Below are positions 4,788 to 9,322 of a stretch of 64,000 nt of DNA, one piece after another. This DNA is from Bacteroidota bacterium. GTDB taxonomy: Bacteria; Bacteroidota; Bacteroidia; Palsa-965. The DNA lies in NCBI GenBank assembly GCA_006218065.1, contig VBWE01000013.1:83586-147585 (forward strand). The letters are read 5' to 3'. How positions within the stretch are numbered: position 1 is the first letter of the stretch; every line of letters begins with the position of its first letter. Made by a program: the position numbers and the translations under genes. The notes below the pieces were generated by a model. The model searched no databases, was not told the DNA's origin, and saw nothing but the letters and a program-made list of their open reading frames with translations.

Positions 4788-6581
4788 TTATTTTTCTGTG
4801 ATGAACTTGCCCGAAGCCAGTCGCTCTGCACCGTTACGGAGTTCATAGAAATACATACCGCTCTGCAGCGATGCGCCCGAAAGCGGAATGATGCTGCGGC
4901 TCAGGTTGTTTTCTGTATAAACGAGTTTGCCGTTCATGTCGAAGATCGAGAGGGAAAGATCGTCTGCTGCGTAAGCGGCAAAGTTGCCGATCTGGATCAC
5001 GCCGTTTCCGTTCGACGGGTTGGGCATTACGGTTACGGTCAGGTTTTGTGCGGCATTGATATGCGTGGAAGTCGGGAAACCGCCTTCGGTTACCGTGTAG
5101 CCTGCATCAGCCGGGAGAACCATCATCTGGTCAACAACTCCCGAAGGCCATGAAACGATCACGCTGTCAATTTGTGTAGCTGATCCGAGACCGAAGTGTG
5201 CGGTAAACGAATTCTGGATACCGTACGCTTCACCCGAGCGGATTTCGCGAACCTGTACGCCCCAGGGGCCGTAAATTTTCACGATAGCGCCGACGCCGTT
5301 CTTGTTGCTCATGCCGGCAACGGGTGCGCCGCCAACGAGATCGAACTTGATCCAGTGATTGGTATTGCCCTGGTTCGGGCTGTCGTTCATCCACAGGTGG
5401 TCGTTCCGGGTGGACGGTGAGTTGTAAACGTCGCAGTAGCTGCCATAAAGATCGAGGAAGCCGTCGCCGTTCAGATCACCTACCGCATGCGAAGTGATGG
5501 TGTAAGTGTTGTAGTTGAACGGGTTCGGCGAAACCTGTACGAAAGTGCCGTCGCCGTTGCCTTTGTAGAGGTAGTGATTGTCGCCGGTGAGCATCAGGTC
5601 CAGGTAAGTATCGTTATCGAAATCCTGGAAAGTAGCGTTCATACCGAAGAACGAAGTGGTGTTGCTGATGCCCGAACCGCTGATCGAGTTGGTGAATACA
5701 CCCGATCCGTTGTTGATCATCAGTGTGCTGTTTACGTCGTAATTCAATACGAAACCGTCCATGTCGCCGTCGTTGTCGATGTCGCCCCAGGCTGTGCTCC
5801 AGCCCTGTGCGCCGTCAAGCAGGCCGGTCCAGTTGGTTGTGTCCTGCGTGTATGTGCCGTTTCCGTTGTTGATGAATACCTGGTCGATGCGGCGCGGGTC
5901 GGATGAATTGCTCACACCCTGACGGCAATGCGTGATCATGAGATCGCAAAAACCGTCGTTGTTGATGTCGCTCCATACGGATGCGTAGTTCCCGCTGTTG
6001 TCCGATGATACCGGCGCAGTGGCCAGCGGCATCAGGCTCTGGTCGAAGGTCCAGCCGAGGTTACCGTCGCCGACGTAAATATGGCTCATGGCCACGTCGT
6101 TGCACACAAAGGCGTCGATGTTACCGTCATTATTGATATCGAAATAATTGCAGCCCTGTACAAAAATAGAGCCCGAGCTGGTCACGGTGCTCACATTCTG
6201 GCCGGTGTATCCGCTGCCGTTCCAGTACATCATGCGGGTAGCCCCGTTATCGCCCCAGAGCGCATCGTTGTAGCTGTCGTTATTCACGTCGGCCACGCAC
6301 ATACCCCAGGGTGAGCTGAGGTTATAAGTATGGGTTGCTTCCGTAAAATTGGCGTTGGGTGCGTTCTGCGTGCAGATCGACATGGTTGTGTTGTTCGAAC
6401 GGACAATGTCGTCTTTCTTGTCGTTGTTCATGTCTACCACACCGATAGCATTACCGCTCCGGTATGTTGTGGAGGGCAGCAGGCTGGTCTGGTTGGTAAA
6501 GGGGATTTGCTGTGCAAAAGTAAACGCCGCCGGAAGGAGGGCTACAAATGCCAGCACTTTTTTGGTAGAGCTTGTTTTCAT
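4788..6581 (-). CDS. FG-GAP/VCBS and ASPIC/UnbV-domain surface protein with T9SS tail
   Basis: 597 residues. There is a signal peptide (ending TFAQQ near residue 25) and a run of FG-GAP/VCBS repeats carrying calcium-type DxNxDG/DxDxD loops (for example DMNNDKKDD, DINNDGNID, DIDNDGDMDG, DLNGDGFLD), predicted to form a beta-propeller over about 30-400. An ASPIC/UnbV domain follows (about 410-505, with SGEAYGIQ...FGLG and VSWPSG). The end is a type A T9SS sorting domain (about 520-597, with VMPNPSNG and ending GKFITEK). It should cross the outer membrane through T9SS and be anchored or released. The substrate is unknown. It is transcribed divergently from the cytochrome gene at 6788. Confidence 0.9.
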   Translation of the reverse strand: MKTSSTKKVLAFVALLPAAFTFAQQIPFTNQTSLLPSTTYRSGNAIGVVDMNNDKKDDIVRSNNTTMSICTQNAPNANFTEATHTYNLSSPWGMCVADVNNDSYNDALWGDNGATRMMYWNGSGYTGQNVSTVTSSGSIFVQGCNYFDINNDGNIDAFVCNDVAMSHIYVGDGNLGWTFDQSLMPLATAPVSSDNSGNYASVWSDINNDGFCDLMITHCRQGVSNSSDPRRIDQVFINNGNGTYTQDTTNWTGLLDGAQGWSTAWGDIDNDGDMDGFVLNYDVNSTLMINNGSGVFTNSISGSGISNTTSFFGMNATFQDFDNDTYLDLMLTGDNHYLYKGNGDGTFVQVSPNPFNYNTYTITSHAVGDLNGDGFLDLYGSYCDVYNSPSTRNDHLWMNDSPNQGNTNHWIKFDLVGGAPVAGMSNKNGVGAIVKIYGPWGVQVREIRSGEAYGIQNSFTAHFGLGSATQIDSVIVSWPSGVVDQMMVLPADAGYTVTEGGFPTSTHINAAQNLTVTVMPNPSNGNGVIQIGNFAAYAADDLSLSIFDMNGKLVYTENNLSRSIIPLSGASLQSGMYFYELRNGAERLASGKFITEK

Positions 6582-6756
6582 GCTTTTGGTTTTTTTAGAG
6601 CAATTGTAAATGTAACGATATCAACCTAATAAGAGCAAACTTTTTACTCTAAATCGGTAAAACGACTAATTCCGTCGTTGAAACAAATTATTGCATCGCC
6701 CAATTAAAAAATGCCGGATTCATGCAAAAAATCATGTTTTTCGCCCGGATTGCGCG

Positions 6757-6787: not shown

Positions 6788-8746
6788 ATGAAGAAGTTTT
6801 TACACAAAAACCGCCGTCTCCCGTTTCTTATTTCCCTGCTTGCCGTGATTGCCCTGATGGCCGGACTTCCGGACTGGACAGCCCGTGCGCGAACCTTTCA
6901 TTCCGAAGTGGAGCTGAAACGTTTTGAACATCTCCGTATGACCCTGCCGGTGGATACGAATATATACTTTGCGGCTTCCGGTAAATGCGCCGGCTGCCAC
7001 GGGCACGATCCTGCTTTTGTTGCTTTCTATACTTCTTCGGGCGAAGATGTGAACATTGCCGACGATTGGGCTGGCACGATGATGGCCAATGCCGCGCGCG
7101 ACCCGCTGTGGAGAGCCAAAGTCAGCCACGAGATCCTGATCAATCCCGGCGCGCAGCAGGACGTTGAAAATACCTGCACCCGCTGCCACGCACCCACAGG
7201 CCGTTTCGAAGCCGAATATACCGGGCAGATGCCGTATTCCATGGCCGCGCTCATGGGCGATTCGATCGCGGAAGACGGGGTGAACTGCAGCGCCTGCCAC
7301 CAGTTGAAGGATACGCTGGCCGGCCGGAATTTCACCGGCGACCTGTATTATACCAGGAAAATATTCTATGGCCCATACACCAATCCTTTCGCCGGACCGA
7401 TGTTCGATTTCAACGGTTTTATGCCGGTGTACAGTACGCATATCAATCGCGCCACGCTTTGCGGAGGTTGTCATACACTTATTACCGAAACGCGCGACAT
7501 CGCCGGAAACGCTACCGGTAATTATTTCGTGGAACAGGCTACGTACCACGAATGGCTCAATTCCGTTTACAGCGATACCATGAGTCCGCTCGAGCGCACC
7601 TGCCAGAGCTGCCATATCCCGCGCATCGCCGACCCGGTGGATATCGCTACAAACTATCCTTTCCTGCAAAGCCGCACGCCTTTCGGCAAGCATCACCTCA
7701 TCGGCGGAAATGCATTTATGCTGAAAATACTGCGCAACAATATGACTACCGTGGGCGCTACATGTAATCCGTCCAATTACGATACGACCATCGCCCGCAC
7801 GATACGCAACCTGCGCGACAGTACGCTCGATGCACAACTCACCGAAACCGCACGCACGGTGGATACCGTTTTTTACAAACTCGCGCTTACAAATAAAGCC
7901 GGGCATAAATTTCCTTCGGGTTACCCGGCCCGCCGTGCCTACGTGGAGTTTGTGGTGATGGACGATATCGCCGATACGATTTTCAGATCGGGACTGATTG
8001 ATGCGAACGGAAATATCATGAATGAGGACGTGACTTACGAGCCGCATTATGATATGATCAACGACGAGCAGCAGGTGCAGATTTACCAGATGGTGATGGG
8101 CGACGTAAACAATAACGTGAACACCGTCCTCCTGCGCGCCGATACCACGCTGAAGGATAACCGACTTGCACCGAAAGGTTTTACCACGAGCCATTTTGCG
8201 TATGATACCTGCCGCATCTACGGAAACGTACTCACGGATCCCGATTTCAACCTGAGCGGCGGTGTAACGGAAGGAACCGGTGCAGATACACTGCACTATC
8301 ATATTCCGCTGAACGGGTACACCGGCAACCTGAACGTTACGGCGCGCGTGTATTACCAGAGTGTGCCGGCCAAATTCGTCGCGGATATGTTTACGCTCAA
8401 TTCTGCGCCGATCGATACGTTCAAAAACTTATTCAACAACGCAGATCATACGCCGATGCTCGTTGCCGAATGCCTGATGGGTTCCATCGTTACCGGTACA
8501 AACACCTATGATCTGCCCAAGCTCGTGATATCGCCCAACCCGACCAGCAACGGCCAGGTCCGCGTGATGCATTACCAGGATTACGATATCCGGGCGATCC
8601 GCGTGTATGATCTTTCCGGGAAACTGGTTTCCGAATTGCGGGCCGGGAATTTTAACGGCGTGCTGCAACTTCCGCACCGGGGCGTGTTTATGGTTAGCAT
8701 AGAGACCGCTAAAAAACGCTACGCTCAAAAAGTTATTTATTATTGA
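6788..8746 (+). CDS. Five-heme c-type cytochrome with T9SS sorting domain
   Basis: 652 residues from the ATG at 6788. An N-terminal signal/anchor (about 11-30) is followed by five CxxCH heme-binding motifs at 67-71, 130-134, 167-171, 225-229 and 272-276. The layout resembles multiheme proteins of the cytochrome c554 type, but no precise subfamily is assigned. The region about 290-570 is beta-rich and heme-free. The last 80 residues look like a T9SS type A domain (VISPNPTSNG, then IRVYDLSGKLV, ending KVIYY). A heme protein exported by T9SS would sit on the cell surface and could move electrons outside the cell (inference). The gene at 8768 follows after 21 bp and is probably co-transcribed. 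Confidence 0.88.
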   Translation: MKKFLHKNRRLPFLISLLAVIALMAGLPDWTARARTFHSEVELKRFEHLRMTLPVDTNIYFAASGKCAGCHGHDPAFVAFYTSSGEDVNIADDWAGTMMANAARDPLWRAKVSHEILINPGAQQDVENTCTRCHAPTGRFEAEYTGQMPYSMAALMGDSIAEDGVNCSACHQLKDTLAGRNFTGDLYYTRKIFYGPYTNPFAGPMFDFNGFMPVYSTHINRATLCGGCHTLITETRDIAGNATGNYFVEQATYHEWLNSVYSDTMSPLERTCQSCHIPRIADPVDIATNYPFLQSRTPFGKHHLIGGNAFMLKILRNNMTTVGATCNPSNYDTTIARTIRNLRDSTLDAQLTETARTVDTVFYKLALTNKAGHKFPSGYPARRAYVEFVVMDDIADTIFRSGLIDANGNIMNEDVTYEPHYDMINDEQQVQIYQMVMGDVNNNVNTVLLRADTTLKDNRLAPKGFTTSHFAYDTCRIYGNVLTDPDFNLSGGVTEGTGADTLHYHIPLNGYTGNLNVTARVYYQSVPAKFVADMFTLNSAPIDTFKNLFNNADHTPMLVAECLMGSIVTGTNTYDLPKLVISPNPTSNGQVRVMHYQDYDIRAIRVYDLSGKLVSELRAGNFNGVLQLPHRGVFMVSIETAKKRYAQKVIYY

Positions 8747-8767
8747 CCGGTATAAAATCATTCCCCG

Positions 8768-9322
8768 ATGAAAAAATTCCTGGCATGCACATTTCTCCTG
8801 GTATCCGGCCTGTTTCTTTCGGCCTTCGCACCCGGGTACATGCAGGCTCCGAAGTTTACCAAATACGACATCAAAGATTCCGGCTGCAGGATTTACCTGC
8901 CGGGAAAACCCGACCCGGTTGACATGTCGTATTCGCCCGACAGTTCCAAAGTGTACACCATCGAATCGCTTGATTCTACTTACGGAACGTATTTTCATTT
9001 CGGTACAATCGTGGTTCGCCTGAAGGAAGGCGACCTGGTCGGTACCGAAGAAGACATGCTGACCGGCTACATGGATTACCTGAAAGATGCATTCAAGATC
9101 AAAAAAGCGGTCGGTTACGGCAAAGGACATGCGCTGAGCACGCATCCCACGGCCAAAGGCGTAATCGATTTCTGGGAAGATGAAGACGGCGACCAGTGGT
9201 CGGTTGCAGGCTGGGCGGCCGAGAGTACGATCTTCGTAATGTTTATTTACGGCAACAAAGAATTTCCCAACCAAAGCGTCAAGGAAGTATTCTTTAAAGG
9301 CGCGCGTTTCCCGGGGGACTAG
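8768..9322 (+). CDS. Conserved hypothetical secreted protein
   Basis: 184 residues with a signal peptide (about 1-20, LFLSAFAPG). The mature part is about 160 residues, polar, of mixed alpha/beta character, with no cysteine pair or metal motif I recognise and no T9SS tail. It follows the cytochrome gene by 21 bp and probably belongs to the same transcript. Function unknown; a helper of the surface cytochrome is possible from position alone. Confidence 0.75.
   Translation: MKKFLACTFLLVSGLFLSAFAPGYMQAPKFTKYDIKDSGCRIYLPGKPDPVDMSYSPDSSKVYTIESLDSTYGTYFHFGTIVVRLKEGDLVGTEEDMLTGYMDYLKDAFKIKKAVGYGKGHALSTHPTAKGVIDFWEDEDGDQWSVAGWAAESTIFVMFIYGNKEFPNQSVKEVFFKGARFPGD

Follow-up and report, generated by a model that had tools for sequence, protein, structure and literature searches.

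Can a c-type cytochrome with several hemes be handed to the type IX secretion system (T9SS) of the Bacteroidota and so be placed outside the cell? The question is raised by a gene at 6788-8746 on the forward strand of a 64,000-nucleotide stretch (hereafter the window; positions 83,586 to 147,585 of contig VBWE01000013.1, assembly GCA_006218065.1) from a Bacteroidota bacterium of the lineage Palsa-965. A first-pass annotation of this DNA had described five CxxCH heme motifs and a T9SS type A tail in one protein, and had proposed periplasmic maturation followed by export, a possible role in extracellular electron transfer and a small secreted partner. Our analysis favors the reading that the product is a T9SS-exported Bacteroidota pentaheme cytochrome of the c552 kind, more distantly related to ExtKL, and that it most likely carries electrons or works as a reductase at the cell surface; we put the probability of this reading at about 0.58. 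The part of it that was computed comprises the heme motifs, the fold matches for both core and tail, a tail that is stably inherited and machinery genes that are present. Genomes, contigs and loci are referred to by our G, C and L numbers, the host genome being G000.

Results

The open reading frame (ORF) encodes 652 amino acids plus a stop codon, and the ORF call together with profile matches identifies a pentaheme c-type cytochrome with a T9SS type A C-terminal domain. Translation could also begin further upstream, at an ATG at 6722; the start at 6788 yields a Sec-type N-terminus, in which a charged n-region, a hydrophobic core and the residues ARA follow one another by eye, and residues 1-34 (6788-6889, forward strand, as for all features of this gene) form a putative signal peptide with cleavage expected after ARA. 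The five motifs of the first-pass annotation are confirmed, starting at residues 67, 130, 167, 225 and 272: CAGCH (residues 67-71, 6986-7000), CTRCH (130-134, 7175-7189), CSACH (167-171, 7286-7300), CGGCH (225-229, 7460-7474) and CQSCH (272-276, 7601-7615). Each is aligned in 79/79 family sequences, a constancy that follows from the selection of this set, since the 79 distinct sequences (the window's included) were all picked for exactly five CxxCH, while sequences that were broken or cut off by a contig end (L062, L107 and L125 among them) were left out. Among the 191 stop-to-stop segments of at least 100 amino acids in the six frames of the window, only the cytochrome ORF contains any CxxCH; when its residues were shuffled 20,000 times, the mean was 0.008 motifs and the maximum 1, against the five observed. 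Genome-wide counts of the pattern were uninformative, with 232 matches versus 353 for a reversed control pattern. The gene is single-copy in the host genome (5.26 Mb, 81 contigs). Another ORF of that genome, on the minus strand of contig C9 at ~126.8-128.1 kb (L129), carries six CxxCH motifs.

The T9SS type A domain noted in the first pass is borne out at residues 578-652 (8519-8743), where the NCBI model TIGR04183 matches residues 581-650 with 35.4 bits (cut-off 23). Across the 27 sequences of alignment A2, TIGR04183 matched 24 and the Pfam model PF18962 matched 11 (both at E 0.001). Structure prediction, which had been put forward as a check, was carried out, and the predicted tail (577/578-652) has the fold of T9SS cargo C-terminal domains, with Z-scores of 8.7-10.7 to the tails 8glk_D, 8gl8_D, 8qb1_A, 8glj_D and 8gl6_D. 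The best of these is 8glk_D (Z 10.7, root-mean-square deviation (rmsd) 1.7, 72 residues aligned), followed by 8gl8_D (9.3) and 8qb1_A (8.9), and the family profile also reaches the NucA tail 8glk_D by sequence (E 6.7e-5). The cytochrome thus shares with T9SS type A cargo (the NucA, FspA and RemA tails; 8glk, 8glj, 8gl6) a C-terminal beta-sandwich matched by TIGR04183, as well as a Sec-type N-terminus, by eye in the cytochrome, and the presence of SprA in the phylum; unlike these named cargo proteins, the tagged protein here is a multiheme cytochrome. At least 150 places in the host genome lie above the TIGR04183 cut-off (the best 150 of 424 candidates), and the tail of the cytochrome scores more weakly than these.

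The core of the protein was compared with solved structures through a model built from 27 sequences (mean predicted local distance difference test (pLDDT) score 65.6), whose well-predicted parts are the immunoglobulin-like (Ig-like) domain and the tail. The Ig-like beta domain, delimited by the predicted model and fold matches, spans approximately residues 344-566 (7817-8485) and includes H373, the invariant histidine of a GHKxP motif. In Foldseek, the best solved structure was that of Thermochromatium tepidum pentaheme cytochrome c552 (5ze8; E 1.1e-10); a second aligner matched 5ze8 to model residues 71-566 (Z 14.2, 306 residues, 20% identity), and the family profile found it by sequence in two stretches (E 4.5e-4). 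T. tepidum c552 has, by its title, five hemes; the fold likeness extends into the Ig-like domain of our cytochrome, and its PHAMPTGAP aligns with the GHKxPxGxP stretch. It differs in having no T9SS tail in the matched chain, whose alignment runs to residue 566 of the model, and in its weak sequence similarity.

A more distant kinship is with the pentaheme cytochrome (PHC) family, which, in the available part of PMC11976967, includes ExtKL, Gsu2801 and proteins of cable bacteria and has small members structurally similar to c552. Five hemes and an Ig-like domain are common to our cytochrome, ExtKL/MccSep and the PHC family of cable bacteria and Geobacter. The NCBIfam ExtKL model (NF040886) gave a weak match in 22/27 members, and the window protein, at 23.6 bits, did not reach the cut-off of 250 of this equivalog. 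ExtKL and MccSep differ in having a selenocysteine in the Ig-like domain, at the position of Tyr379 in the window cytochrome; moreover, the cytochrome loci examined show no ext-like gene cluster, and our cytochrome adds the T9SS tail. A weak match to the MtrC/MtrF domain is present in all 27 members and is below the gathering score in the window protein. Because core and tail each match known kinds, we regard the protein as an established type of pentaheme cytochrome in a T9SS-tagged form.

Of the order's 12 genomes, five (G000, G001, G002, G003 and G006) have a full-length relative. A draw of 395 genomes from the class gave a match of at least 100 bits in 77 (a hand count, with at most three candidates scored per genome), a larger tally of 334/395 being made up mostly of matches to the T9SS tail only, and 25 of 395 genomes drawn from the phylum matched at E 1e-20 or better, also with at most three candidates scored. 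The input to the 79-sequence alignment from the class search was its best 30 loci, which, having been found with a tagged-protein profile, are biased toward tagged members; the input from the phylum search was the loci of all 30 matches. The tail played no part in fetching the 27 named loci, for which core peptides were used, and every one of them has a tail region of 69-83 residues (L007-L009 via the identical copies L002, L003 and L005); a PNP motif and the tail are conserved over the family.

In a quick tree of the 79 sequences built from the core only, 67 are tagged and 12 untagged, with two changes of tail state; deep positions are unsure because of several long branches. The untagged members are one clade of 11 and a single copy (L124), which directly adjoins the tagged L102 in genome G646. 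In G646 the tagged and the untagged gene form a tandem pair on one strand (L130: 7413-9293 and 9393-10994), possibly a pair serving periplasm and surface. Outside the Bacteroidota, five relatives of the core were found on plasmids, and the three that were read have no tail: those of Sulfurovum mangrovi (31.7% identity, query 1-535), Paracoccus seriniphilus and Shinella (each ~24%), whose matches end at query residue 531-535. Two weaker Nitratiruptor matches cover query 63-418, and a sixth plasmid match, in Persicobacter, is to the tail only. Judged from these sequences, the T9SS tag is stably inherited in the cytochrome family, and it is old and widespread in the phylum.

The machinery that such a protein would need is encoded. 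SprA was found in the host genome and in 33/33 other genomes tested. In the host, sprA is split on contig C9 at ~94.6-101.6 kb (L127), with model positions 2-617 and 645-2318 in different frames, overlapping ends and ~27 model positions missing between the parts. In six relatives (G002, G003, G004, G006, G007 and G008) SprA is whole, covering the entire model in one frame of 2441-2481 amino acids; therefore, either the host gene is broken or its assembly is wrong. For heme attachment, contig C57 of the host carries two Cytochrom_C_asm ORFs that flank an ORF with a CcmE domain; the larger flanking ORF also matches CcmF_C slightly below the cut-off.

We also identified a distinct arrangement in the clade without the tag. 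Directly upstream of the tag-less pentaheme gene in all 11 loci (L108-L118) lies a gene for a protein with one full-size cytochrome c domain (PF13442/PF00034) and a C-terminal probable barrel (examples at L134:9959-11143, L140:6856-8145 and L141:10036-11229). The C-terminal region resembles the outer-membrane family PF13557, whose cut-off was passed by one of three partners scanned (22.4 vs 22) and missed by the other two, and mostly ends in DGGxFEGW. Counts of alternating segments in three partners (10, 9 and 11, with shuffled means of 6.0, 7.2 and 6.1 and maxima of 11, 13 and 11) give no real support for a barrel. The pair stands side by side with open frames in 10/11 loci, the partner frame of G590 (L118/L154) containing a stop.

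Searching the phylum draw, taken to comprise the 395 genomes already used in the family search and with at most four candidates scored per genome, gave partner matches above 500 bits in exactly the 11 genomes of the tag-less clade. At E 1e-10, no partner was listed in the 14 genomes that hold only other family members (G646 included). Weaker matches extending past the cytochrome domain were found in G397, G450 and G408, all without a family member in the phylum search, and the remaining 29 of 43 genomes with a match show it in the cytochrome domain only. Fisher's p for the partner, 11/11 versus 0/14, is 2e-7, a value that overstates the evidence because the 11 genomes form one clade. The tag-less clade with its predicted monoheme cytochrome-barrel gene upstream, in 11/11 genomes and with the partner not found in 14 others, is new. 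A missing T9SS was rejected as an explanation for the absence of the tail, given that SprA is encoded in 11/11 genomes of the clade.

The partner bears some parallels with Cyc2, a fused cytochrome-porin with an AxPxFAR[Q/K][T/Y] motif before its CxxCH (PMC8406198, in the part of the text available). An N-terminal monoheme cytochrome joined to a C-terminal barrel, probable in the partner, is common to both, as far as that text describes Cyc2. The partner is unlike Cyc2, as described there, in having no AxPxFAR motif before its CxxCH (by eye in A3, an alignment of nine partners), and further in its full-size cytochrome domain, its weak likeness to PF13557 and its position directly upstream of a pentaheme cytochrome. 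It possibly forms with the tag-less cytochrome a new trans-outer-membrane pair, and the distribution of the two suggests that tag and partner are alternative ways across the outer membrane.

Around tagged members, the neighbourhoods vary by group. Upstream and divergent in all four loci compared within the order (the window, L007, L008 and L009) is an FG-GAP/ASPIC-UnbV protein with a T9SS tail of its own, identified by domain match and located in the window at 4788-6581 on the minus strand. In one Flavobacteriales group, a gene for a MOSC-domain protein follows the cytochrome and overlaps its end in some loci (L021:7926-8732 and similar loci); its cluster occurs in 11/28 loci. The same group accounts for all nine of the 27 named loci (L018, L020, L021, L022, L027 and L030-L033) in which a cytochrome gene with two CxxCH motifs lies ~0.8-3.5 kb downstream on the opposite strand. 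Two-CxxCH ORFs lie ~4 kb away in L138 and L139, and the one scanned is a MauG-type peroxidase. Neighbourhood cluster counts are lower bounds because in L018, L027, L029 and L031, all four rich in G+C, the ORF picker passed over the cytochrome gene.

Downstream of the cytochrome in the window, an ORF at 8768-9322 on the forward strand encodes 184 amino acids with a hydrophobic N-terminus, probably secreted. The product matches no Pfam or NCBIfam family, and a tblastn search against the cytochrome loci returned only the window's own genome, the next best match having E 0.81. The proposal that this small protein is a conserved partner was therefore rejected, with no relative detected by tblastn in the other loci. 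A single-sequence model (mean pLDDT 52) resembles PsbP/DcrB/EagT6-type domains at TM-scores of ~0.5 or less, a likeness too weak to use.

Discussion

Maturation in the periplasm followed by export, the order of events proposed in the first pass, is the best reading of these data: the tail model, the tail fold, the stable inheritance of the tag, SprA and the CcmE/CcmF-type locus all agree with it, while the split SprA of the host does not. Heme loading, export and a redox role are the parts of this reading that we infer. The cytochrome would pass the inner membrane via Sec, five hemes would be attached in the periplasm, where a CcmE/CcmF-type locus could provide the means, and folding would follow. 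The T9SS would then move the folded cytochrome across the outer membrane by its C-terminal domain, leaving it either anchored to the surface or released, and outside it would most likely carry electrons or act as a reductase at the surface. In the other clade, the same core without the tail would be retained, its partner at the outer membrane being the cytochrome-barrel fusion. Extracellular electron transfer by the exported form, also suggested in the first pass, is plausible by analogy with its kin, given the relationship to ExtKL and c552 and the weak MtrC/MtrF match.

Several observations pull against export and against a role in electron transfer, and should be weighed together. Much of the modelled heme domain is at low confidence, as is common for heme domains when the hemes are left out, and the match to 5ze8 has modest TM-scores (0.31 by query, 0.48 by target) and an rmsd of 11.7 in Foldseek and 5.1 in the second aligner. 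Owing to these TM-scores and the low-confidence region, the fold of the heme part is less sure than that of the Ig-like part. As regards the tail, the window protein passes TIGR04183 but falls slightly short of PF18962 (24.9 bits against a gathering score of 27), and unrelated Ig-like chains score up to Z 7.7 on it. Because the host SprA is split, export in this very strain is unsure. The gene is accessory, with G004, G007 and G009 having no copy though they are 98-100% complete, and, since tag-less members occur in genomes that encode SprA, the core can evidently serve without export as well. The surroundings of the 27 named loci, the window gene and 14 further stretches yielded no neighbouring redox gene shared by the tagged groups, and no conduit was seen near tagged members in the neighbourhoods examined. 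The MtrB/PioB porin (PF11854) was found in 0/32 genomes, a negative that is weak because the controls scored only below the cut-off.

That no conduit was seen near tagged members also speaks for the main rival to an exported electron carrier, namely that the protein is exported as an enzyme or an iron-acquisition reductase (acting, for example, on ferric iron or an oxyanion) and is not a respiratory carrier. Its fold relative ExtKL is, in the available part of PMC5877670, a candidate for selenite reduction. On the Shinella sp. HZN7 plasmid (L171:5146-10617), the relative of the cytochrome stands in the order imelysin, DUF4405, multiheme cytochrome and FTR1 iron permease, which suggests a role in ferric reduction and uptake there. 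Further support comes from the candidate ligand histidines, which are not uniform over the family: H302 and H373 are present in 79/79 sequences, H420 in 76, H218 in 70 and H469 in 63, so that an open site is possible. Against these points, the Shinella protein is only ~24% identical and has no tail, the selenocysteine of ExtKL/MccSep-type proteins aligns with Tyr379, and no substrate or active site was identified. We consider this explanation a serious but minority one.

A cytochrome that stays in the periplasm, with a tail too weak for export or otherwise used, is unlikely. The missed PF18962 score and the divided SprA of the host assembly would fit it, and the relatives without a tag presumably act in the periplasm or at a membrane, but the TIGR04183 cut-off was passed, the fold match is clear, the PNP motif and tail are conserved in the family, and SprA is complete in G002, G003, G004, G006, G007 and G008. 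It is highly improbable that the exported protein polymerizes outside the cell to a heme filament comparable to the extracellular cytochrome nanowires of archaea, an idea prompted by the 5ze8 core fold and by the relationship between T. tepidum c552 and the AvECN nanowires that Baquero et al. (2023) proposed, as told in the available part of PMC11976967, since a filament would need to accommodate the T9SS tail and the Ig-like domain and AvECN, by the same text, has four hemes.

The surface cytochromes known so far get outside the cell either as lipoproteins or by way of porin-cytochrome complexes. In the open literature searched, with subscription papers mostly outside this scope, we found no description of a multiheme cytochrome exported by the T9SS, and T9SS and extracellular electron transfer were found together only in a review of oral vesicles (PMC12594592, in the part available). 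There are reports of secreted multiheme cytochromes in Bacteroidota, with no T9SS route given in the available part of that source (PMC11495043), and a Bacteroidetes cluster from an anode, as described in the accessible part of PMC8258643, encodes six multiheme cytochromes and a barrel protein. It is tempting, though doubtful, to go further and suppose that the T9SS replaces an outer-membrane conduit, by way of the tag in most lineages and with a cytochrome-barrel neighbour in another, and that these proteins form an undescribed, phylum-wide class of surface cytochromes.

If our reading is true, a heme-loaded cytochrome exported in folded form by the T9SS would be another route to the cell surface, and surveys based on Mtr- or Pcc-type clusters would overlook cytochromes exported in this way. 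The tag-less clade with its cytochrome-barrel neighbour offers a direct comparison for what the tag replaces, and a large part of the Bacteroidota, most of it uncultured, would emerge as candidates for redox chemistry at the cell surface.

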